Notes under the pieces: generated by a model
The model's input: only the letters and a program-made list of their open reading frames with translations
Databases searched by the model: none
Told to the model about the DNA's origin: nothing
Made by a program: the position numbers and the translations under genes
Part shown: positions 41,444-53,279 of the stretch, in pieces
How the letters are laid out: the number at the start of each line of letters is the position of its first letter
Position numbering within the stretch: position 1 is the stretch's first letter
Assembly: GCA_004193285.1 (NCBI GenBank)
Contig: SECP01000012.1
Span: 62,001-126,000 of the forward strand
Reading direction: 5' to 3'
Length of the DNA: 64,000 nt
Source: Myxococcales bacterium
Lineage (GTDB): Bacteria; Myxococcota_A; Polyangia; Polyangiales; Polyangiaceae

Positions 41444-43705
41444 TTGAGAAATTGGCTGATTTTAGTGGTCGCGGTCGCGCTGGCGGCGCTCGTCGCGCTC
41501 TCCAACCGACCGGAAGAGGACGCGACGCTCGCACCCGCGACGTCCTCGACACCTGCTCGCGTAACAAAAACCGCTCCGCCGCGAGGGCGTGAGACATTCG
41601 TCGGCTCGGCCGCATGCGCGGATTGCCATCGCGCGCAGAGCGACGCCTACCGCAGCTCGCACCATGCTCGGGCGCTGGTCGCGCCCGGAGCAGAAGGTAC
41701 CGCGCCCTTCGACGAGTCTCCCTTCACTTCCACGTTCGGCGGCACGACGAAGTTTTCGTCGCGCGGAGGCGCGCCGGTCGTGACCACACCAGCGCCGGAC
41801 GGCAAAAGCGCGACGTACCCCGTCCGCTATGTGGCCGGCGTCGCGCCCCTCCAGCAGCTCGTGGTCGAGACCGAGCGCGGCAAGCTGCAATCGCTCGGGG
41901 TGGCGTGGGACACGCGCCCGGCTGCGGACGGCGGCTCTCACTGGTTCCACGTTTACGGACCGAAGGGCGTCGCTCCTGCGGATTCCTTATTTTTTACCGG
42001 CTCCTCGCAGAGCTGGAATCACATTTGCGCAGATTGCCACTCCACCTGGGTCGAGCGACGTTACGACGTCGCCTCGGACAGCTTCGACACGCGCTGGGCC
42101 GAGCTCGCGGTCGGCTGCGAGGGCTGCCACGGGCCGGGCGCCGAGCACGTGCGCACGGCCAAGGAAGGCAAACCGGAGCCGTTCTCCGCCCGGCTGACCC
42201 GCGCCGAGCCGTGGAAGCCGTCCGCCACCGGCAGCCCCACGCCTCGCGCGCAAGACGAGCGCGAGGTGGAGACCTGCGCGCCGTGCCATAGCCGTCGCTT
42301 GCCCCTCAAAGAGGGGTTCGTCGCGAGCGACGCGTTTCTCGACTCGTTCGAGCCCGATTTGCTGCGGCCCGGTCGTTACCACGCGGACGGCCAGGTCGAA
42401 GGGGAGGTCTTCGAATGGGGGTCCTTCCAGCAGAGCCGCATGCACGGCGCGGGAGTTCGCTGCTCAGATTGCCACGAGCCGCACTCCGGCAAGACGCTGG
42501 CGCAGGGCAACGCGCTGTGCGTCCGCTGCCACGAGTCTTCGCGCTTCGACACCCAGCAGCATTCGCATCACGCGGGAGCCCGTGCGCCGCAGTGCGTCGA
42601 CTGCCACATGCCGAAGGCGACCTTCATGCAAGTTCACGAGCGGCGTGACCATTCGATCCGGATCCCTCGCCCCGATCACAGCGTCGCGTTCGGTACTCCC
42701 AACGCGTGCAATGGATGTCACGACGGAAAGCCCGCTGCTTGGGCGCGCGAAGCGCTGGCAAAGTGGAATCCTGCTTCGCCGGCGCGTCCGCACTTCGTGG
42801 ACGCGCTCGCCAGCGATCGACAGGGCAGCCTGGAGGCGCCGCGGCGGCTCCGCCAGCTGGCAAACGACGTCGCCTTTCCCGCCATTGCCCGCGCGACCGC
42901 GCTCGAGCGGCTGGGCAGCTACCCTTCCGAGAACACGTTGCGGGCGCTCCGGGCGGCGCTCTCCAGCTCCGACTCGCTCGTCGTTTACGGAGCGGTGCGA
43001 GGCGCGGCGCTGCTCCCTCCACCGCAGCGCGCCCAGTTACTGGCCCCTGCCCTCCAGCACGAGGTGCGCGCGGTGCGGGTTGCCGCCGGCAAGGCCCTGG
43101 CCGGCGCCGCGCTCACCTTGCTCCCCGCGAGCGCCCGCGCTGCGCTGGAACGGGCATTCGCGGAGGTGCAGCAGAGCTTTGCGGTGAGCGCCTCGCGCCC
43201 GGAAACCCACGTCGAGCAGAGCGCTTTCGAGCTGGCCCGAGGCAGGCTCCAAGAAGCGGAAGGCGCGCTAAGCCGAGCGCTCCGTTTGGACCCGTGCTCG
43301 CTTCAAGCGCACCTGAACCTCGCCGAGCTGAACCGCCAGCGCGGCCACGAGGCGCAGTCCGAACGCGAGATTCGCGCTGCCCTCGGCTGCGATGAACGGA
43401 GCGCAGCCGCATGGCATGCGCTCGGTCTGTGGCAAGTGCGAGCCAAGCAGAGCCGAGCCGCGCTTGCGAGCCTGCAAAAGGCCGTCGAGCTTTCGCCCAC
43501 CGATCCGCGCTTCAGCTACGTACTTGCAGTCGCGCTCGCCGGTGGTGGTGATCGCTCTCGAGCGATGCGCGTGTTGGAGGCCGCGCTCAAACATCGCCCG
43601 AACGACGCGAGCACCCTGCAAGCGCTAGCCAGCTACTCACGCGAAGCCGGGCACAGTGAGCGCGAAGCCGAGCTGCGAAAGCAACTGCAGCAGCTGCAAG
43701 AGTGA
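41444..43705 (+). CDS. Eight-haem c-type cytochrome with HEAT-like and TPR C-terminus
   Basis: 753 residues from TTG 41444, which starts a single N-terminal membrane anchor or signal (RNWLILVVAVALAALVAL). Eight CxxCH motifs lie between about 58 and 425: CADCH, CADCH, CEGCH, CAPCH, CSDCH, CVRCH, CVDCH and CNGCH, with extra His residues for bis-His ligation, as in cytochrome c554/NrfA-related multihaem proteins. Residues about 450-590 are helical, HEAT-like (ARATALERLGSYPSENTLRALRAAL), and about 600-750 are TPRs (GRLQEAEGALSRALRLDPCSLQAHLNLAEL). It likely moves electrons in the periplasm and docks partners by its repeats. No Shine-Dalgarno is clear. Confidence 0.88.
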   Translation: MRNWLILVVAVALAALVALSNRPEEDATLAPATSSTPARVTKTAPPRGRETFVGSAACADCHRAQSDAYRSSHHARALVAPGAEGTAPFDESPFTSTFGGTTKFSSRGGAPVVTTPAPDGKSATYPVRYVAGVAPLQQLVVETERGKLQSLGVAWDTRPAADGGSHWFHVYGPKGVAPADSLFFTGSSQSWNHICADCHSTWVERRYDVASDSFDTRWAELAVGCEGCHGPGAEHVRTAKEGKPEPFSARLTRAEPWKPSATGSPTPRAQDEREVETCAPCHSRRLPLKEGFVASDAFLDSFEPDLLRPGRYHADGQVEGEVFEWGSFQQSRMHGAGVRCSDCHEPHSGKTLAQGNALCVRCHESSRFDTQQHSHHAGARAPQCVDCHMPKATFMQVHERRDHSIRIPRPDHSVAFGTPNACNGCHDGKPAAWAREALAKWNPASPARPHFVDALASDRQGSLEAPRRLRQLANDVAFPAIARATALERLGSYPSENTLRALRAALSSSDSLVVYGAVRGAALLPPPQRAQLLAPALQHEVRAVRVAAGKALAGAALTLLPASARAALERAFAEVQQSFAVSASRPETHVEQSAFELARGRLQEAEGALSRALRLDPCSLQAHLNLAELNRQRGHEAQSEREIRAALGCDERSAAAWHALGLWQVRAKQSRAALASLQKAVELSPTDPRFSYVLAVALAGGGDRSRAMRVLEAALKHRPNDASTLQALASYSREAGHSEREAELRKQLQQLQE

Positions 43706-44873: not shown

Positions 44874-45881
44874 ATGGTCTCGCACCTCTTGGTCGGCAAC
44901 CCGACAGCGCAGAGCGGAAAGAATCGTGAGCGGATCGAGCAAGCGCTCGCGTTGATGAGCGCCGAGGGCATGCCGGCCGATTTTCTGTCCACGTTGCCGG
45001 ATGGAAAGACGGTCGCGGCGGTGCGCGCGGCGCTCGAAGACAAGCCCTACGCGGTCGTCGTAGCGATGGGCGGAGATGGGACATTTCGAGAGGTGGCGGC
45101 CGGTCTTTACACGAGCGTGCGGCGCGAGGACGTCGCGCTCGGCATGCTCCCGACCGGCACCGCCAACGATCAGGGGCGCAGCTTCGGCTTGCACGGGGAC
45201 CAGGGCGCGCTCGAGCGCAACATCGGTGTCGTCCGCGCCGCCTACGAGACACGGCTGGATGTAGGGGTTTACCGAGCAGGCGGCGCGCTCCACGACGACT
45301 ATTTCTTCGATTCTTGCGGCTGGGGACTTTCCGCGCGGGTGCTCGCGCAGCGCAACAAAGATCGAGCGGTCGTGGAGCAGCTCGGCCCGCTCAAGGAGCT
45401 TTACCGAGATCAAGCGGTGTACGCAGGCGCCTTCTTGAAGACGTTCCTCGAGTCGTACGTCATCGACGACAAGTTCCGGGTCGTGGCCACGCTGGACGGG
45501 CAGCGGGTGGAGCTCGAAGGGCTCACCGACCTCATCGTGAAGAACACGCGCGTCTACGCCGGAGCCTGGGTGCTCGACGAGGCCGCGCGCCACGACGACG
45601 GCATCTTCGAGCTGGTGCCGTTCGTCGGGAAGCTGGACTGGACGTCGAAGGCGATTCGCGATCTGGCAGTGGTGCCGCTGAACGAAGAGATGCTGGAGGG
45701 CGTCGGCCTCGAGCATTCCAAGACGTTGCGCGCGTCCAGCCTGGATTTGGAGTTTTTCGCGCCCGAGGGTGGGGCGCCGCTGGCGGCCCAGCTAGACGGA
45801 GAAGAGTGGCCGGCGAGCTCGCGAGTTGCCATCCAGGTGGCGAAGCGCGCGCTGCGGCTGATCGTGCCGGAGAGCCGTTAG
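44874..45881 (+). CDS. Diacylglycerol/lipid kinase family protein (YegS/DgkB-like)
   Basis: 335 residues from ATG 44874. Family motifs: N-P-T-A-Q-S-G-K-N at the N-terminus, V-A-M-G-G-D-G-T-F-R-E-V-A near 65 (ATP site) and G-M-L-P-T-G-T-A-N-D near 95. It probably phosphorylates diacylglycerol, ceramide or another lipid alcohol at the inner face of the membrane. Its stop overlaps the convergent gene's stop by four bases. Confidence 0.9.
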   Translation: MVSHLLVGNPTAQSGKNRERIEQALALMSAEGMPADFLSTLPDGKTVAAVRAALEDKPYAVVVAMGGDGTFREVAAGLYTSVRREDVALGMLPTGTANDQGRSFGLHGDQGALERNIGVVRAAYETRLDVGVYRAGGALHDDYFFDSCGWGLSARVLAQRNKDRAVVEQLGPLKELYRDQAVYAGAFLKTFLESYVIDDKFRVVATLDGQRVELEGLTDLIVKNTRVYAGAWVLDEAARHDDGIFELVPFVGKLDWTSKAIRDLAVVPLNEEMLEGVGLEHSKTLRASSLDLEFFAPEGGAPLAAQLDGEEWPASSRVAIQVAKRALRLIVPESR

Positions 45882-47287
45882 CGCAGCGTATCGAGCTTGA
45901 GCGAAATCGCGCCGCGCGCTTCCAGCCACGCGACGAGCTCGTCTCCGCGAGCGGCGGCGCCGGCCGCGCGCGTGGAGGAGACGAGGGCCTGCACTTGGAA
46001 ACCCGGTCGCGAGAGGCTGGCGGCTAGCGAGGGGGCGGCGTCTTTGGAGCCGCGAACTGAGAGCAGGGGCGCGAGGTGGACGGCCGCGGTCAGCTTTTGC
46101 GTGAGCTCGCGTTCGTCCAGCTCGCTTCCGGCCAAGCGCGAGCTCTCGCCCGGCTGGAGCGCGCCGCGGGTGAGCTCGATCTGCTGGCGCTCCTCGGTGA
46201 ACGAAGGCGCGGACCGAAGCGCGAGGTCACCGCAGACTTCCCCCGCCAGCGTGAGCTCCACGTCTGCTTCGCTCCCTCGAGAGGTGACTGCGGCGTGTGC
46301 CACGCGCACTCGTTTGCCCGAGACCTCCACGGGCGGAGCGGCCTCCAGGGCTCGCGCGACGCTTTCCAGCGGGGTGACCATGCCGAGCAGGACCGCGCCT
46401 TCTCGAGGCAGATCAGCGTCCGTTGCCAGCGGCGGTAGGGGCGGGAACGACGCTTCTGCCTCACAGCGAGCTCGGAGCTCCGGCCGAGCCAAGACCGCGA
46501 AGCGACCGCTCAGCTTGGTGGACGAAGGCTCGAATGGCCCCTGCACGATGGCTCGAGGTTGCAGCACGAAGCAGCCGCCGAGCGGCAGCTCACGTGGCGC
46601 CAAAAGCTCGCGCCACGACTCGTTCAGGCGCGGTTTCAGCTCCGGCAGCTGTTCGTCTATCTGCCGCGCCACCTTGGCCAGCTCCGGCGCTAGCTGCGCC
46701 TCTAGGGTGGGAGTGACGTCCACCGTGAGCAAGCCGCCGAGCGCGCGCACCTTGCAAGCGCGGGTGAACGTCGCCGAAACGGAGGTCTTCCGGAAGCGGT
46801 AGTCAGGCGTCAGCATCAGCGGCACTTCGGCGACGACCCGCGCCTCCGGCTCGCACGATGCGTAGCAATCGTCGCCGCGGCACGCCTCCGCTCTGGCGCG
46901 CGCGGGCGCCTCGATGAGGAGAGCCGAGCTCGTCACTCGCAGCGAAAGTGGTCCGCGCTCCACGCGGTACGTCACCGTGCCGCCGGGGCCGATCCGAACC
47001 CGGCCCTCGGCGAGCCGCTGAGGCACGCGCTCTTCCAGCGCGCGCTGGAGAGGCAAAAGCGGAGCTTCCGCGCTCACCACCACGCGTGACTCTGGCGCCG
47101 CTGCCGCGCCGGCCGGCGCGCGAGCCGCTGCCTGGGCCCGCGACGGCAGCTGCACCGCGCACTCCGCGATCCCACTTCTGGCGTCTCCCGGCGCTGCCGA
47201 CATGCCCGAAGCGCAGCCCCCGAACGCGAGCCAGGCGAGGCCAAGGACGGGAGCCCGGCGTCCCGCGGACTTGAGTTGCTCGGTCAT
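45878..47287 (-). CDS. Lipoprotein, possibly DUF4403/BPI-like
   Basis: 469 residues from ATG 47287, whose first base is also the last of the regulator's TGA stop (TGATG), so the two genes are coupled. Signal peptide ends A-F-G-G-C. The body has long amphipathic strands (V-V-V-S-A-E-A-P-L-L-P-L-Q-R-A-L-E-E-R-V-P, L-T-P-D-Y-R-F-R-K) and a repeated beginning of the second half, like the DUF4403 tubular lipid-binding fold. Family assignment is from sequence impression only. If right, it binds lipid in the periplasm; being cotranscribed with a B12-type regulator, it may be light- or B12-controlled. Confidence 0.6.
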   Translation of the reverse strand: MTEQLKSAGRRAPVLGLAWLAFGGCASGMSAAPGDARSGIAECAVQLPSRAQAAARAPAGAAAAPESRVVVSAEAPLLPLQRALEERVPQRLAEGRVRIGPGGTVTYRVERGPLSLRVTSSALLIEAPARARAEACRGDDCYASCEPEARVVAEVPLMLTPDYRFRKTSVSATFTRACKVRALGGLLTVDVTPTLEAQLAPELAKVARQIDEQLPELKPRLNESWRELLAPRELPLGGCFVLQPRAIVQGPFEPSSTKLSGRFAVLARPELRARCEAEASFPPLPPLATDADLPREGAVLLGMVTPLESVARALEAAPPVEVSGKRVRVAHAAVTSRGSEADVELTLAGEVCGDLALRSAPSFTEERQQIELTRGALQPGESSRLAGSELDERELTQKLTAAVHLAPLLSVRGSKDAAPSLAASLSRPGFQVQALVSSTRAAGAAARGDELVAWLEARGAISLKLDTLR

Positions 47288-48192
47288 CAGCTGGCTTTTC
47301 TCGCACGTGCGAGCGCGAGGTCCAACGTGGGCCAAGAGTCCACGACTTCCGCGCGTGGCGGAAGCTTGCCGAGCCCCCGTGCCCCGGAGCCGCCGACCCA
47401 GAGCGCTACCGTGGGCGGCAACGCGCGCGCCAAGCTCTTCAGCCCCTGACGCGCGGAAACCGGGTCAGCCGCGGGGGTGAGCGCGATGCCCACCGCGTGC
47501 GCGCCGAACGCGCGCGCGGCCGCGGCCACCTGCGCGGCGGGCGTGTTCGCTCCGAGCAGCCGAGGCTTGGCGGCGCTCAGCGCGGCGTAGAGCGCCACCA
47601 TTTGCAGTCCCAGCGTGTGCGGCTCACCGGGTAGGGTCGCCAGCACGACGAGCGGAGCGCCTTCGTCCGCTTCGTGGGACGACAGCAGCGCTCTCAGCTT
47701 TGTCGTCAGACACTCGGTCATCACGTGCTCTTGCCGAATCGCAAGCTTACCTTCGGACCACGCCTTGCCAACCGCGACCGCCAGCGGCTGAGCCAGCTCC
47801 GTCACGAAGCGCTTCGCTCCCAGCGCGGCCGCGGCCAGACGCAGCTCGTCTTCGATTCGCTTGACGTCGTCTTGGACCAAGAGGTCCAGCAGGGCGGGCA
47901 CGTCCGCGATGGCTCGGCCTCGAGGCGCGGCGCGATCCTCGGTTTCGCTTTTTACGAGCGCGAGTACCTGCGCGGACGACAGCGACATGACGTCCCCCGG
48001 GCGGTACCCTTGCTTCAGAGCCCGCGCCACGAGCCGCAGCCGCTCCACTTGCTCGGACGGGTAGAGCCTGCGGTTGGTCCCCTCCGGCCGGGTAGGCTGC
48101 GGAAAGCCGTAGCGACGTTCCCAGGCCCGCAGGGTGCCGAGCGGGAGGCCGGTGAGCTCCGAAACCACTTTGATCGAGCTGCCGAGCTCCAC
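47287..48192 (-). CDS. B12-binding MerR-family regulator (CarH/LitR-type photoreceptor)
   Basis: 301 residues from GTG 48192; TTG 48216 is the alternative. The longer frame to 48264 would run through the operator and promoter, so it is rejected. Domains: MerR winged helix (about 5-75; R-A-W-E-R-R-Y-G-F-P-Q-P), a helical bundle (about 100-170) with the B12-photoreceptor motif Trp145-x9-Glu155-His156, and a cobalamin Rossmann domain with E-P-H-T-L-G (His192 as lower axial ligand). In T. thermophilus CarH the Trp/His, His/His distances are nearly the same. In the dark, AdoCbl-bound CarH tetramers repress; light breaks them up. Residue 146 after Trp is Ser, where CarH has the His that ligates cobalt after light. 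Confidence 0.9.
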   Translation of the reverse strand: MELGSSIKVVSELTGLPLGTLRAWERRYGFPQPTRPEGTNRRLYPSEQVERLRLVARALKQGYRPGDVMSLSSAQVLALVKSETEDRAAPRGRAIADVPALLDLLVQDDVKRIEDELRLAAAALGAKRFVTELAQPLAVAVGKAWSEGKLAIRQEHVMTECLTTKLRALLSSHEADEGAPLVVLATLPGEPHTLGLQMVALYAALSAAKPRLLGANTPAAQVAAAARAFGAHAVGIALTPAADPVSARQGLKSLARALPPTVALWVGGSGARGLGKLPPRAEVVDSWPTLDLALARARKAS

Positions 48193-48223
48193 GGGAGACG
48201 AAATCTTGGGTCTCAAGGGTTGA

Positions 48224-48254
48224 CCTATACAGAAGCTGTACAATACCTCTACAA
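48224..48254 (+). promoter_or_regulatory. CarH-type operator: three 11-bp direct repeats
   Basis: Three half-sites fit the pattern nnTnTACAn at exact 11-base steps: ccTaTACAg (48224-48232), gcTgTACAa (48235-48243) and ccTcTACAa (48246-48254). This equals the operator layout known for T. thermophilus CarH. It lies in the gap between the B12 regulator gene and the divergent operon starting at 48333. Confidence 0.85.
48226..48254 (-). promoter_or_regulatory. Predicted promoter of the B12 regulator gene
   Basis: Reading leftwards, TTGTAG (48254-48249), a 17-base spacer and TGTATA (48231-48226) form a sigma70-like promoter that coincides with the operator repeats, so bound regulator would block it. 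Initiation would fall near 48219, giving a short leader before GTG 48192. On the other strand TTGACC (48220-48225) could be a -35, but its spacing to TACAAT is too short (13 bases). Confidence 0.55.
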
Positions 48255-48332
48255 GACCTGCCACTCAATCGCGGACTTCCCCTTGGCCTCACTGCTTCAT
48301 CCCCGCCCCGCTCACGGCCGCCGCGGAGACGC

Positions 48333-49121
48333 GTGCTGAGCGAGAGTTGGGCGGCTCGGCTCGCTCCGGAGCCTTTCCGCGACTTCCTGCAGTACGCGTC
48401 GCCGTCCGCGCTCAAGGTCATTCATACCCAGCAGGTCCTGCGGCGGGCGCTCGAGGTAGCGCAGCATCTGTCGCGCCCCGCGGAGCGTGCCCAGCAGGCC
48501 GAGCGCCTTCGGGCCTCGCTCGAGCAAGCGGGCCTCTCCGCGGAGCTGAAGATCGCGGAGCAGCCAGTCACCCGTTTGGATACGGCGGGGCTGAGCGAGG
48601 CCGAGCGAGCCCTCATCGGGCAGCGCGTGCTGGCCCTCTACTTTCATCAGCTGCATGGGGACGGACCGCTCTTTCTGGATCTGCGCCCGAGGCACTTCTG
48701 CTGGAGCTCGGAGCGGCAGGAGCTGAGCTTTTACCCAAGCGGCTTGTGGTGCCGCCCGGACGCCGAGTTCATGTCGCGCCTCCGGTCGCTCTACTCCGGG
48801 TTCTACGACGCCGACCCCTCCAAGCTCGCGCAAGGGCTCGAGCTCTACCGCTGGGAGTGCGAGCCGAGCCCTGGCTTCTCCGCTCGCATGGAGGCGCTCC
48901 TCCGTCAGCACTTCGGGGTCGGGCAAAGCGGCGAAATGCCCTTCGCTATTGCCCACTTTCGCGCCACCTTCGACGCCATCTTCAAAGAAGCGGCGGGGAG
49001 CCGCGCGCGTTTGCACCCGGACCTCACGTTCCTCGGTGTCGAGCTGGTCGGGCTCTACTTGACCCTGGAATCACTCAGCGTGCCGCTCGCCCCGCGAGCC
49101 GCCTTCGATGGGGCGCGGTGA
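48333..49121 (+). CDS. Unknown protein, first gene of the divergent operon
   Basis: 262 residues from GTG 48333 with GGAG about six bases upstream. It is soluble and helix-rich (RDFLQYASPSALKVIHTQQVLRRALEVAQHL; DAEFMSRLRSLYSGFYDADPSKLAQGLELY). A central segment has D-L-R-P-R-H-F-C-W and paired Trp/Tyr residues that might line a ligand site. No family recognised. The next gene starts inside its stop (GTGA). Its place opposite a CarH-type regulator suggests a light- or B12-regulated role. Confidence 0.8.
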   Translation: MLSESWAARLAPEPFRDFLQYASPSALKVIHTQQVLRRALEVAQHLSRPAERAQQAERLRASLEQAGLSAELKIAEQPVTRLDTAGLSEAERALIGQRVLALYFHQLHGDGPLFLDLRPRHFCWSSERQELSFYPSGLWCRPDAEFMSRLRSLYSGFYDADPSKLAQGLELYRWECEPSPGFSARMEALLRQHFGVGQSGEMPFAIAHFRATFDAIFKEAAGSRARLHPDLTFLGVELVGLYLTLESLSVPLAPRAAFDGAR

Positions 49122-50023
49122 GCAAGGAGGCTCCGCGAAGGGCTCTCGTGACTGGCGCCACCGGCTTCATCGGTCGTGCGCTCGTACCAGCGCTACTGGC
49201 GCGCGGCTTTCATGTCTCGGCCGCGAGCCGTCGGCCGCGCGCTTCAGCCGACCCTTTGGGAGTGGATTGGCGCGTGTGCGATCTCCTGCAACCGGCGTCG
49301 CTCCAGAGCGCACTGGCCGGCGCGAGCGTCGCCTTTTACTTGGTGCACAGTATGGGCACCGGTAGCTCGAGCTTCCGCGAGCTGGAGCGCCGCGCCGCGC
49401 TCGCCTTCGCCTCCGCGGCCGCGAGCGCAGGGGTAGAGCGGATCGTTTACCTCGGCGGGCCCGCTCCTCCGCACGAGCCCTCGGAGCACCTGCGAAGCCG
49501 CCTCGAGGTCGGGGAGATTTTGCGCTCCGGCTCCGTGAAGGCGGTAGAGCTGCGGGCATCGATGGTCATCGGGCCCGGCAGTGCATCCTGGCAAATCGTG
49601 AGAGATCTGGCGGTGCGGCTCCCCGTCATGGTGCTGCCCCGGTGGCTCGGCTCGCGGACTCGCCCTGTCGCGCTGGAAGACGTCATCCATGCGCTGATCG
49701 CCGCCGCCGGGCTGCCGATCGAGGGCAGTGAGTGGTTCGACGTCCCGGGGCCGGAAACGCTGAGCGGTCAGCAGATCTTGGAGCGTATCGCGGCGCTGCG
49801 AGGGCGGCGCTTCTTGGCCCTCAAGGTGCCTTTTCTCACTCCGCGGCTGTCTGCCCTGTGGCTGCGGCTCATCACTCGCACGGACTTTGCGGTGGCGCGA
49901 GAGCTCGTGCTCGGGCTCCAAGAAGATCTACTTCCCAAAGACGACCGCTTTTGGGAGCTCCTGGGTCGGCCCGAGTTGACGTCGTTCGACGACGCGGCCC
50001 GCCGGGCGTTGGCGGCCGAGTGA
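49118..50023 (+). CDS. NAD(P)-binding SDR-like protein (atypical, TMR/UPF-type)
   Basis: 301 residues from GTG 49118, overlapping the previous stop by four bases; this start puts the dinucleotide motif V-T-G-A-T-G-F-I-G-R-A at the N-terminus. Residues include H-S-M-G-T-G near 75, Y-L-G-G-P near 110 and R-A-S-M-V-I-G-P-G near 150, as in the large NAD(P)H-binding family with a Rossmann core; a Y-x-x-x-K catalytic pair is not obvious. CarH/LitR-linked operons in other bacteria often carry related SDR proteins. Stop overlaps the next gene by four bases. Confidence 0.85.
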   Translation: MSKEAPRRALVTGATGFIGRALVPALLARGFHVSAASRRPRASADPLGVDWRVCDLLQPASLQSALAGASVAFYLVHSMGTGSSSFRELERRAALAFASAAASAGVERIVYLGGPAPPHEPSEHLRSRLEVGEILRSGSVKAVELRASMVIGPGSASWQIVRDLAVRLPVMVLPRWLGSRTRPVALEDVIHALIAAAGLPIEGSEWFDVPGPETLSGQQILERIAALRGRRFLALKVPFLTPRLSALWLRLITRTDFAVARELVLGLQEDLLPKDDRFWELLGRPELTSFDDAARRALAAE

Positions 50024-50673
50024 GCCTTCGGCCTCGTCGCTTGCTCGGCCTCGCCCTCTTGGCCTGGCTCGCCTGCTTCCAGGTCCTGCGGACGATGGGC
50101 ACTTGGACTCCTTTCGCGTTCATCGGAGTGGGCCTCGCCGCGCTCGGGGTGTACTCGCGAGCGGTGCCGCGAGCGTCGCTGCGCCCTTCTCTCGCCTCCT
50201 GCAGCTTGGGCGTGCTCGGTGGCGCCGGCATGGTGCTGCTCACTCACGTCATCTACGGCTGGGTGGTCGCGCTCGCGCCCGCGGTAGGGGTGGCGACCCA
50301 GCAGCTGCTCCAGCGCCTGGATTTGGGCGGCTTTCCTGCGGCTTCTCGGGCCACCCTCATCTGCGTGATCGCCAGCTGCGAAGAGATCCTGTTCCGCGGC
50401 CTGCTACCGCAAGGCTCCGCTCCACCGGTCGCCGGCCTGCGTCGGCCCCAGCCCCGTGAGCTCTCGCGGGTCGCCATCTTCACCGCCGCCTACGCGCTCA
50501 CCACCGCGCCACTACAAAGCAGCCTCCTCATGCTGTGCGCGTTGGTCTGTGGCAGCGTGTGGGCGCTCATGCGCGTCGCGACCGGCTCCCTCGTGGTGCC
50601 CATTTTGGCCCACGCCATTTGGGACCTCGGCGTCCTCTTGATCTGGCCGCTGCCTGCCGGGCCGACCGGTTGA
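50020..50673 (+). CDS. CPBP-family intramembrane metalloprotease
   Basis: 217 residues from GTG 50020, again a four-base overlap (GTGA). About six membrane helices. The CPBP/Abi catalytic motifs are present: E-E-I-L-F-R-G near 122 (motif 1) and H-A-I-W-D-L-G near 202 (motif 4). These proteases cut membrane-bound substrates, including CAAX-type processing in eukaryotes and bacteriocin self-immunity in bacteria. In this operon it may process an envelope protein under the same control as the SDR gene. Confidence 0.88.
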   Translation: MSLRPRRLLGLALLAWLACFQVLRTMGTWTPFAFIGVGLAALGVYSRAVPRASLRPSLASCSLGVLGGAGMVLLTHVIYGWVVALAPAVGVATQQLLQRLDLGGFPAASRATLICVIASCEEILFRGLLPQGSAPPVAGLRRPQPRELSRVAIFTAAYALTTAPLQSSLLMLCALVCGSVWALMRVATGSLVVPILAHAIWDLGVLLIWPLPAGPTG

Positions 50674-50725: not shown

Positions 50726-52045
50726 ATGAAGAACCTGCCCAAAGACGCGTGGAGTCGCTCGAAAGCAGTGATGGGTTTGGTTGCGGGGCTGTCCGGGCAA
50801 GAGCTGCGGCATCGGCTGCGTTCGGGCCTCAGCGGCACCGCAGAAAAGCTACGCGCGTCCGAGCTCACGGCGCGAGTCGAGCAAGCTCGCCTGATGGTGG
50901 AGAGCCTCGGCCGGCTCAAAGGCGCGCTCATGAAGGCGGGGCAGCTCCTGTCCATCGACGCGAGCGACATCTTGCCGCCAGAAGCGATGGCCGTCCTCGC
51001 ATCGCTGCAAGGCGGCGCGGAGCCGGTGGAGCTGGAGTCGCTGCGCGTCGTGTTGGTGGAAGAGCTGGGCGAAAACTGGGAGCAGGCGTTCGACCGCTTC
51101 GATCACGAGGCCGCTGCGTCCGCCAGCATTGGTCAGGTGCACCGCGCGGTGTACCGAGGAGCGCCGGTTGCGGTCAAAGTGCAGTACCCCGGCGTCCGCG
51201 AGAGCATCGACAGTGACCTCGGCGTGCTGGAGAAGCTCGGCTCGGGGTGGGCCGCCGTCTCGCGCCGTGACATCGACCTGAGCGGCGTTTTCGAAGAGCT
51301 GCGCGCTTTGCTGCACCGCGAGGCGGACTACCGTCACGAGGTCGCGAGTCAGCTCGAGTTCGAACGGCTGCTCACCGGCGATGCGCGCTTCGTGGTGCCC
51401 CGCTCCGTCCAGGAGCTTTCCACGACCCGCGTGCACACGATGTCTTGGGAGCAGGGCGAGGCGCTTGGGGCTTGGTTGCAGCGCGCGGACGCCCGCGCCG
51501 ACCGTTCGTGGTTGGCGAAGGCGCTGCTGGACCTGTATTGCTCGGAGTTCTTCCGCTGGGGGCTCGTTCAAACCGACCCGAATTTCGGAAACTTCCTCGT
51601 TCGTGAGCCCGAGCGCCAGCTCGTGCTGTTGGATTTCGGGGCGACCCTCGAGTTCGACGAGGCGTTCCGGCGAAGCTACGTGCAGCTCCTGCGCGCCGTT
51701 GGCGAAGGTGACGACGCTCGCATCGCCGAAGAGGGCGTGGCGTTCGGTTTGATCGACGCGCGCGAGTCGGCGGATACGCGCGCGCTGTTCGCTCGGTTCC
51801 TCAAGACCGCGGTCGAGCCGTTCGACGCGTCGCTACAGCCGTTCGCGTTCAAAGACGCGGGCTACGCGGAGCGAACGAGCCAGGTCTCGCGGCAGTTCAT
51901 CCGCAGCTTGCGATTTTCGCCGCCGCCACGCCGGCTCCTCTTCCTCCATCGCAAGCTGGGCGGCATCTTCCAGCTCCTCAAGCGTCTGGACGTCCAGCTG
52001 GATCTGCGACCCTACTGGGAGCAGATGGTCGAGGGCCCGAGCTGA
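50726..52045 (+). CDS. ABC1/UbiB-family atypical kinase
   Basis: 439 residues from ATG 50726, 52 bases after the CPBP stop. Family signatures: K-x-G-Q in M-K-A-G-Q-L-L-S near 72, A-A-A-S-A-S-I-G-Q-V-H-R near 132, V-A-V-K-V-Q-Y-P-G near 150, Q-T-D-P-N-F-G-N-F near 283 and L-D-F-G-A near 303. UbiB/ABC1 proteins are ATPases or kinases needed for isoprenoid quinone metabolism and lipid extraction. It may be co-transcribed with the preceding genes. A strong hairpin at 52051-52068 ends the unit. Confidence 0.92.
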   Translation: MKNLPKDAWSRSKAVMGLVAGLSGQELRHRLRSGLSGTAEKLRASELTARVEQARLMVESLGRLKGALMKAGQLLSIDASDILPPEAMAVLASLQGGAEPVELESLRVVLVEELGENWEQAFDRFDHEAAASASIGQVHRAVYRGAPVAVKVQYPGVRESIDSDLGVLEKLGSGWAAVSRRDIDLSGVFEELRALLHREADYRHEVASQLEFERLLTGDARFVVPRSVQELSTTRVHTMSWEQGEALGAWLQRADARADRSWLAKALLDLYCSEFFRWGLVQTDPNFGNFLVREPERQLVLLDFGATLEFDEAFRRSYVQLLRAVGEGDDARIAEEGVAFGLIDARESADTRALFARFLKTAVEPFDASLQPFAFKDAGYAERTSQVSRQFIRSLRFSPPPRRLLFLHRKLGGIFQLLKRLDVQLDLRPYWEQMVEGPS

Positions 52046-52073: not shown

Positions 52074-53279
52074 CTACGCCTTGGCGGTGCGAGCGCCGCT
52101 CAGCCGCTCCGGCAAGTCGTAGCGCGCGGGCACGCCGCCGAGCCCTTGCTTCACGGTGAAGTCCCAGTAGCGCGTGCCGAGGTGGTGGACCCAATCATTC
52201 AGGCGCGGCACGCCTTTGCGCGCGCTCTCCAACAGACGAAGCGCGGTGCGCACGCCGAGCGCCCAATGCCGATGCGCGTCCCGCTCCAGCCCGAGCCCGT
52301 CCGCCAGCTCGTCGCCGATGAGGCTGCGGCACAAGCCGCGAGAGATCGCGACTTGGTGCTCGGCGCGCCGCTTTTCGCTCGCGGTCTTGGCTAGGCGCAG
52401 CGGGCCCTCCAAGAGCGCGCTCACCAGCTCGCGCGAGTCGTCGTCCGGCGCGCCTTGGGTGAGGAGGATGAACTTCGAGAGCCTCGTCGCTTCCGCGTGA
52501 GTAGCTGGCAAAAGCTCCGGCTCGACGCCCATGAGCTCACCCACCCACCGGAAAAGGTGCTGGTAATCGTCGGCCTCGTCCGGCTCCACCTGGACTCCCA
52601 GCAGCCGAATACCGTCGATGAAGACGTTGGAAAACAGCAGGATCGTCGCCAGCATATCGTGCTGGTTGATGGGCTCCGACCAGTCCGCGTGGGACCAGCG
52701 CCCGGTGCCGAGCACGAGCCTCCTCACCTCCGCATGCATCAGCCGCACCTTCAGGACCAGCTGCCAGCCGAGCGCCCCCGGCCGCAAGCCGTCTACCGCC
52801 GTCACGGCCGTGACGAACTTGCCGGTCTCGGCGAGCCGGCGGTCCGCCTTTTGTTTCAACCTTCCGGAGAACGCCAGGGGCTTGTTGCCCGCGGGCGCTG
52901 CGTAGCCGTAGACGAGCGAACGCAGGCCGAGGGTGAGGCCGCCGAGGAGCCCCGGTCGCACGAACACGTCGTGGGCGCGCGCGAGCCTTGTCCAGTCCAC
53001 CCAGGGCGGCACTTGCTGGGCGGCCAGGCAGAAGTCGCGGAGCGCTGCTGGCGCCTGTTCGAGATCTCCCTCGAGAGCGGCCTCGATGAGCGCTCGACGT
53101 TCCGGGGCGGGAGTCTCCGCCAGGCTCGCGACCACCGCATCTGCCAGCGGATCCTTGCGGTCCAAGTAAGGCACGAGCCGCTCACCCAAATCCTCGAAGC
53201 GCTCCTGAGCCTCGGCCACTCGGTGCACCCTGCGTGGCCAAACGAAACCGGCTTGCACCATGAAGCAGCAGTTTCGCAC
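52074..53279 (-). CDS. DUF2236 (MpaB/latex-clearing-protein-like) oxygenase family protein
   Basis: 401 residues (an ATG at 53261 would remove six residues). Features of the family: W-V-D-W near 95, G-L-T-L-G-L-R-S-L-V-Y-G near 110, R-L-K-Q-K-A-D-R-R-L-A-E-T-G-K-F-V near 145 with the Arg/Thr pair of Lcp, and M-H-A-E-V-R-R and N-Q-H-D-M-L-A-T for haem-region His residues. Lcp cleaves polyisoprene oxidatively with haem b; MpaB cleaves a polyprenyl chain in fungi. The substrate here is unknown. It faces the UbiB-family gene convergently. Confidence 0.85.
   Translation of the reverse strand: MRNCCFMVQAGFVWPRRVHRVAEAQERFEDLGERLVPYLDRKDPLADAVVASLAETPAPERRALIEAALEGDLEQAPAALRDFCLAAQQVPPWVDWTRLARAHDVFVRPGLLGGLTLGLRSLVYGYAAPAGNKPLAFSGRLKQKADRRLAETGKFVTAVTAVDGLRPGALGWQLVLKVRLMHAEVRRLVLGTGRWSHADWSEPINQHDMLATILLFSNVFIDGIRLLGVQVEPDEADDYQHLFRWVGELMGVEPELLPATHAEATRLSKFILLTQGAPDDDSRELVSALLEGPLRLAKTASEKRRAEHQVAISRGLCRSLIGDELADGLGLERDAHRHWALGVRTALRLLESARKGVPRLNDWVHHLGTRYWDFTVKQGLGGVPARYDLPERLSGARTAKA

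Follow-up and report, generated by a model that had tools for sequence, protein, structure and literature searches.

The regulators described so far that stand closest to the locus analyzed here belong to the CarH/LitR family. The available text of PMC9304148 gives nnnnTnnACAn as the operator consensus, reports light-responsive CarH proteins in Sorangium and other bacteria, and describes the CarH of Cystobacter as acting as a dimer. Its survey of 27 myxobacterial genomes assigns a single CarH hit, tied to carotenoid genes, to each genome outside Cystobacterineae (Sorangiineae or Nannocystineae). In the CarH protein of T. thermophilus (TtCarH), illumination yields a cobalamin with bis-His ligation, to which His132, the neighbor of Trp131, contributes; the accessible part of PMC10442372 finds the H132A variant mostly tetrameric in the light, and is thereby at odds with an earlier report, cited in it, that H132A does disassemble, on whether bis-His ligation is required for release. 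The CtMerR protein, with Arg at the place of His132, passes from tetramer to monomer in the light (accessible part of PMC11796333). For class II LitR proteins of Pseudomonas, the portion of PMC9758184 at hand lists GTP cyclohydrolase I, an SDR and an FAD oxidoreductase in the light regulon.

In this work, a window of 64 kb (C9:62001-126000, 68% G+C) from an 8.66-Mb genome in 119 contigs was analyzed by comparative genomics combined with structure prediction. We consider it probable that three tandem repeats in this window are the operator of an AdoCbl-dependent CarH/LitR repressor, which is encoded by the adjacent minus-strand gene and is the second copy of its kind in the genome. The features of the locus are listed in Table 1.

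Table 1. Candidate operator, adjacent regulator gene and neighboring genes in the 64-kb window
Feature	Position	Strand	Basis
DUF4403 gene, start overlapping the regulator stop	45878..47287	-	PF14356; overlap by eye
Regulator: MerR winged helix, four-helix bundle and B12-binding Rossmann domain; 301 aa from GTG 48192	47287..48192	-	Pfam, PDB matches, model
GGTTGACC, ahead of the first repeat unit	48218..48225	+	kept in G006 (alignment; by eye)
Candidate operator: three tandem 11-bp units nnnnTnnACAn	48222..48254	+	sequence, single genome occurrence, conservation beside related regulators
262-aa protein gene, first of the divergent row	48333..49121	+	no Pfam family; predicted fold COQ8A/ABC1-like
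SDR/NmrA-type NAD(P)-binding protein gene, start overlapping the preceding stop	49118..50023	+	PF13460; overlap by eye
CPBP (Rce1-like) membrane protease gene, start overlapping the preceding stop	50020..50673	+	PF02517; overlap by eye
ABC1/UbiB-type kinase gene, 52 bp past the CPBP gene	50726..52045	+	PF03109 (8e-56)

The intergenic gap that holds the repeats extends over positions 48193-48332. An earlier sequence-only reading had noted TACA three times in phase on the plus strand (48228, 48239 and 48250), which is correct, and had called the 11-bp repeats exact, which applies to the TnTACA core only (48226-48231, 48237-48242 and 48248-48253, at a spacing of 11 bp); elsewhere the units gaccTATACAg (48222-48232), aagcTGTACAa (48233-48243) and taccTCTACAa (48244-48254) differ. 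The tandem units agree with the 11-bp consensus of CarH and class I LitR operators as taken from the available part of PMC9304148, and the site is very probably an operator of this type. Three TnnACA cores in phase occur once in the whole genome, at this site, and never in the reversed control; a second pair of in-phase TnnACA units was absent from the rest of the 64-kb window on both strands. Allowing one mismatch adds one genomic site and one control site. The additional site, C10:3619, coincides with the initial codons of an open frame of unrelated type, which may in truth start further down. When the genome was searched for two TnTACA units, two hits fell on the window site and one on the C10 site, with two in the control. 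When a wider regulon was sought by the repeats in the same genome, zero-mismatch matches were limited to the window site, and none of the three loci with a GTP cyclohydrolase II gene held a good repeat match (best, 8/12). The element GGTTGACC may be either a -35-like element of the plus strand or an AGGT-type ribosome site of TTG 48216 on the minus strand.

The sequence-only reading also placed a B12 regulator next to the repeats, and this is borne out by Pfam, motif and PDB comparisons, which identify a CarH-family protein with intact AdoCbl-binding signatures. Matches to MerR_1, MerR, B12-binding_2 and B12-binding are all above the Pfam cut-offs (for PF02310, 37.4 bits vs. 32.1). The N-terminal MerR winged helix (PF13411, 1.4e-13) carries the RxWERRY motif as RAWERRY, the four-helix bundle contains Wx9EH (WSEGKLAIRQEH), and the lower-axial His motif D/ExHx2G/P of the Rossmann domain is present as EPHTLG. 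The top PDB sequence matches are the TtCarH entries 3whp and 5c8d (1.2e-23 for 5c8d), followed in third place by 2jml, the CarA DNA-binding domain. An AlphaFold2 model (11-sequence alignment, mean pLDDT 88.2, pTM 0.69) has TtCarH chains, including the DNA complex 5C8E, as its top PDB fold matches; superposition of the full chain fits poorly (first 12 rows, rmsd 13-20 A), and chains of the B12 domain alone superpose better (TM by target about 0.74-0.81). All SignatureFinder motifs listed in the accessible part of PMC11796333, namely GxxW, EH, GxxH and GxxxP, are found as GKAW, EH, GEPH and GANTP. Sequence and model thus support membership in the CarH family. The top NCBIfam match is the CarH equivalog NF052513, at 110.8 bits far below its cut-off of 400, and the protein was therefore placed in the CarH/LitR family at large and not under this equivalog. 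The genome also carries a gene of the ATP:cobalamin adenosyltransferase family (6.2e-59).

Another CarH relative of the same genome, located on C23 (L039), has 34% identity to the window regulator and stands in a row with genes for a lycopene cyclase, a polyprenyl synthase and a CrtI-like oxidase (Amino_oxidase family). Upstream of this carotenoid row, TAGACA and TGAACA lie in phase (TGAACT in G006), and the repeats beside the two CarH-family regulators of the genome differ in sequence. Relatives were drawn from genomes sharing the genus, family or order of the window and from the best 80 loci of a longer contig-search list. From the resulting 140 regulators, one was too short and 24 of the other 139 were thinned out, which left 115 rows for a quick tree. 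In this tree, the window regulator falls inside a 31-row clade (support 99) that comprises the window's family and L109, a Myxococcales record, and the carotenoid-linked copy falls inside a separate 28-row clade (support 95). A 65-row group (support 98) unites the 31-row clade with a clade of 28 rows, proteobacterial for the most part, and one of 6 rows. The two regulators share neither a clade nor a gene row, and by its sequence the window regulator is a second CarH-family regulator, of a lineage apart from the carotenoid-operon copy. The literature searched, with few subscription journals covered, yielded no description of such a second CarH.

At the place right after the Wx9EH Trp, where the TtCarH-type bis-His photoswitch has its His, the window regulator has Ser. 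No equivalent of His132 is present in any of the 31 clade members or of the 26 counted proteobacterial relatives (0/57), and 19 of 83 other proteins have one, 13 of the 83 being without a recognizable Wx9EH. The carotenoid-linked copy lacks this His as well (WESGDICIASEH), so its loss is not special to the window's lineage. The residue before the lower-axial His is Pro in the window regulator and Arg in TtCarH, where it belongs to the dimer salt bridge. A residue pair of salt-bridge type is mentioned without numbers in the available text of PMC9304148. Because of the Ser in place of His132 and the Pro in place of Arg, it would be too simple to transfer the release chemistry or the interface of TtCarH to this protein. 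The missing His is compatible with a light switch, since CtMerR with its Arg still monomerizes in the light, although the chemistry of TtCarH may not be assumed. These residues bear on the possibility that the regulator senses the level of AdoCbl, binding DNA with AdoCbl and releasing it when AdoCbl runs low, light having hardly any effect or none on release. We regard such a sensor as unlikely: it would suit a lineage without His132 (0/57), given that the loss of this residue keeps TtCarH mostly tetrameric in the light (accessible part of PMC10442372), but it is at variance with the light-driven monomerization of CtMerR (accessible part of PMC11796333) and with the H132A disassembly in the earlier report cited by PMC10442372, and light cleavage of the Co-C bond is independent of His132. 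Control of the window site by both B12 and light is likely.

The promoter proposed in the sequence-only reading, a minus-strand -35/-10 pair overlapping the repeats, was not supported. The pair consists of TTGTAG (3/6) and TATAGG (4/6) with a 19-bp spacer, 7/12 in total. The best pairs in the gap, found on both strands, score 8/12, and this score was reached by 80 of 300 shuffles for spacers of 16-18 and by 110 of 300 for spacers of 15-19, which places the overlap of a promoter with the repeats at chance level. A promoter scan of 47900-48500 detected none. A sigma-70 promoter by consensus in the gap was rejected, with nothing above chance on either strand, and for this reason no transcription start is claimed. 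The 19-bp spacer, which is that of classical MerR promoters, would suit a MerR-type activator binding across a long-spacer promoter. Such activation is very improbable, as the pair itself is no better than chance, the repeats are direct and the spacer holds no palindrome, and the characterized CarH proteins repress (PMC8156234 and PMC9304148, in their available parts). It is by analogy with these characterized proteins only that repression would be expected here. The longest frame of the regulator gene starts at GTG 48264 and crosses the repeats; the other in-frame starts in the window are TTG 48243, TTG 48216 and GTG 48192. In the relatives, an in-frame stop either separates the repeats from the conserved protein start (L190, L194 and L197) or lies inside the repeats (L010, which is from G006, L040 and L189), and these stops give good support to the earlier view that the start of the longest frame is wrong. 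The regulator would start at GTG 48192, the candidate closest to the beginning of homology, or at TTG 48216, which by eye has AGGT six bases ahead.

Another reading is that the regulator acts like CarA, binding DNA independently of B12 until a partner protein removes it. CarA, according to the accessible part of PMC9304148, keeps the lower-axial motif too, and the operators of CarA and CarH overlap, but the Wx9EH Trp, which CarA lacks, is present in the window regulator, and we give this reading very little weight.

For the clade members, candidate operators were scored as the best three-unit match, out of a maximum of 12, within the 300 bp ahead of the gene and 30 bp of the gene itself. Among the 31 clade members, the window included, seven sites score 12/12, seven score 11 and three score 10, the remaining 14 members scoring 6 to 8. 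All 17 sites of at least 10/12 are oriented away from the regulator; among 1766 background windows, each 330 bp long and taken from long loci, 14 reach this score. These background windows may themselves include real operators. The 26 counted proteobacterial relatives have 12 upstream sites scoring at least 10, eight of them 12/12 and all 12 reading away from the gene, and their shuffled upstream regions (40 shuffles each) have maxima of 8 to 11. No good upstream site was found in 14 of the 31 clade members and in 14 of the 26 proteobacterial relatives. The scan left out L141, the upstream DNA of which is too short, and of four clade-like matches that lacked a locus, G088:C117, G090:C510 and G095:C351 were left out and G084:C98 was included as L109. 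In G002 and G003, a gene on the same strand lies close upstream of the regulator, so the operator may sit further up. In the nearest relative, G006, with a regulator 59% identical, the site is kept and its flanks have diverged: from GGTTGACC through the third TACA, 28 of 36 bases are retained by hand count on the alignment, and the four bases separating units 1 and 2 are all different. The comparison with CarH/LitR operators that had been suggested as a check thus agrees with the assignment, as the make-up, position and orientation of the repeats match sites beside relatives. The bare pattern of three TnnACA in phase has 49 matches over 108 family genomes and 34 in the reversed control (42 vs. 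18 without G019, which has tandem arrays), a count that says little by itself; eight of the 49 are found upstream of a regulator match, no more than about 250 bp from it (G000, G006, G017, G033, G084, G099, G116 and G127), and G033 falls outside the 31-row clade. That the repeats are a functionless product of chance is hardly credible, for although 14 of 31 clade members have no clear site and the family-wide pattern count is just moderately above its control, identical orientation in 17 of 31 stands against less than 1% of background windows, the site is kept in G006, and its lone occurrence in 8.66 Mb is 34 bp from a CarH-family gene.

Two further observations concern operator sequences. In the operators of 35 regulators, unit position 7 tends to be T or G according to whether the recognition helix has Ala or Met in RxWERR: at least one TnTACA unit accompanies Ala in 9 of 15 rows and Met in 1 of 18 (Fisher p 0.0015), an association that is treated as a lead only because the tree yields just two independent pairs. 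At L076:7662-7678, a short stretch some 0.8 kb away from a CarH-like gene of G021, both strands carry two-unit repeats in a nearly palindromic arrangement.

The likely targets of the putative AdoCbl-dependent repressor are its own gene with the DUF4403 gene, a probable operon partner, and divergently the genes for the ABC1/COQ8-like protein, SDR, CPBP protease and ABC1 kinase. Autoregulation and control of the divergent operon are suggested by position and by analogy with the footprinted divergent operators of Sorangium (accessible part of PMC9304148). In G006, the regulator, SDR (76%) and CPBP (58%) genes form one row with GTP cyclohydrolase II divergent, and the genes for the 262-aa protein and ABC1 (72%) are at the end of another contig. 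Across the repeats in the 17 operator-bearing clade members stand a fasciclin-domain protein in seven (L040 by cluster, L016, L109, L189, L195, L197 and L200), GTP cyclohydrolase II in two (L010 and L204), and in one each the 262-aa protein (window), a DCC1-like protein followed by an FAD oxidase (L011), a PAS/response-regulator protein (L012), a sigma factor (L190) and a B12 radical SAM protein (L194); this tally leaves out L188, L196 and L202. For some of the 17 members, the scan used a longer locus covering the same place. Since the divergent genes differ among relatives, the window operon is not a fixed partner of the regulator. GTP cyclohydrolase II is the second gene in L040 and L218. 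The window operon perhaps guards membrane or quinone chemistry against photo-oxidation.

Several neighboring genes deserve mention in their own right. A fasciclin-domain gene is divergent beside regulator and repeats in L040, L057, L109, L195, L197, L218 and L219, and a literature search for CarH with fasciclin returned no paper on the pairing, judged by title. The B12-binding radical SAM gene that is divergent from an operator-bearing regulator occupies L194:6-1265 (minus strand). In the window, an MpaB/Lcp-type oxygenase gene (52074-53279, minus strand) points at the end of the ABC1 kinase gene, and a long reading frame (41444-43705, plus strand) shows, by eye, several CxxCH heme-type motifs followed by TPR-like repeats.

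The 262-aa protein is present in 10 of 108 family genomes, its own counted, and next to a complete ABC1 kinase gene in G000 and G006. No Pfam family scored above cut-off, the ABC1 signal being limited to one of the 10 members (E 0.17); BLASTP against the neighboring ABC1 protein gave nothing, and a PDB profile search gave nothing relevant. Its model (10 sequences, pLDDT 90.4, pTM 0.89) matches COQ8A/ADCK3 (E 5e-6 to 2e-5, TM by query 0.57-0.65) as well as mycobacterial ABC1 proteins. ABC1 kinases carry an HxDPHPGN-like loop, the place of which seems to be taken by FLDLRPRHF; because of this apparent replacement and judged by its model, we take the protein for a probable degenerate ABC1-like protein, its gene lying next to that of a complete one.

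For the window regulator, we infer that it binds AdoCbl, responds to light, forms an oligomer and represses; which genes belong to the operons and what the targets do are likewise inferred. The AdoCbl-bound regulator would oligomerize and place one winged-helix domain on each 11-bp repeat, and the bound oligomer would bar RNA polymerase from both divergent promoters. Repression would thus extend to the row of the regulator and DUF4403 and to that of the ABC1-like protein, SDR, CPBP protease and ABC1 kinase, and loss of the adenosyl group in the light, or a shortage of AdoCbl, would free the site. More tentatively, and as a possibility that we do not favor over its negation, the lineage (31 myxobacterial and 26 counted proteobacterial members) may often pair a classic CarH operator with a sensor lacking His132, which would release DNA by other chemistry or read AdoCbl itself; in the window's family it would run a second regulon apart from the carotenoid genes, here around an ABC1 kinase and its degenerate COQ8-like partner. 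Such a second lineage, with an operator of its own and different neighbors, would widen the known scope of B12-sensing control. A lineage naturally without His132 offers many proteins for deciding if bis-His ligation is needed for release, and two CarH-family regulators might serve as two separate B12 switches, if they do not cross-react.

Among the known systems, the Sorangium cellulosum CarH, as described in the available part of PMC9304148, is a MerR/B12 repressor, as the window regulator probably is, and resembles it in having 11-bp nnnnTnnACAn repeats, at one site between divergent genes and in up to three tandem copies; it differs in being the sole, carotenoid-tied hit of its genome, whereas the window holds a second copy away from the carotenoid operon. 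With TtCarH (5C8D, 5C8E and 5C8F) the window regulator has in common the domain order, fold, Wx9EH, lower-axial His and a three-repeat operator, but identity is about 30%, Ser replaces His132, Pro replaces the Arg before the lower His, and the neighbors are other. The clade neighbors GTP cyclohydrolase, SDR and FAD oxidoreductase are reminiscent of the genes that respond to light through class II LitR (PplR/PmlR) in Pseudomonas; in the accessible text of PMC9758184, however, these proteins have the four-helix part only and PmlR2 works with a LOV protein, whereas the window regulator has both B12 domains. The CtMerR protein, in the available part of PMC11796333, is an AdoCbl light-responsive MerR protein without His132, a residue that the window regulator lacks as well, and its DNA-binding domain is just 25% identical to that of TtCarH.
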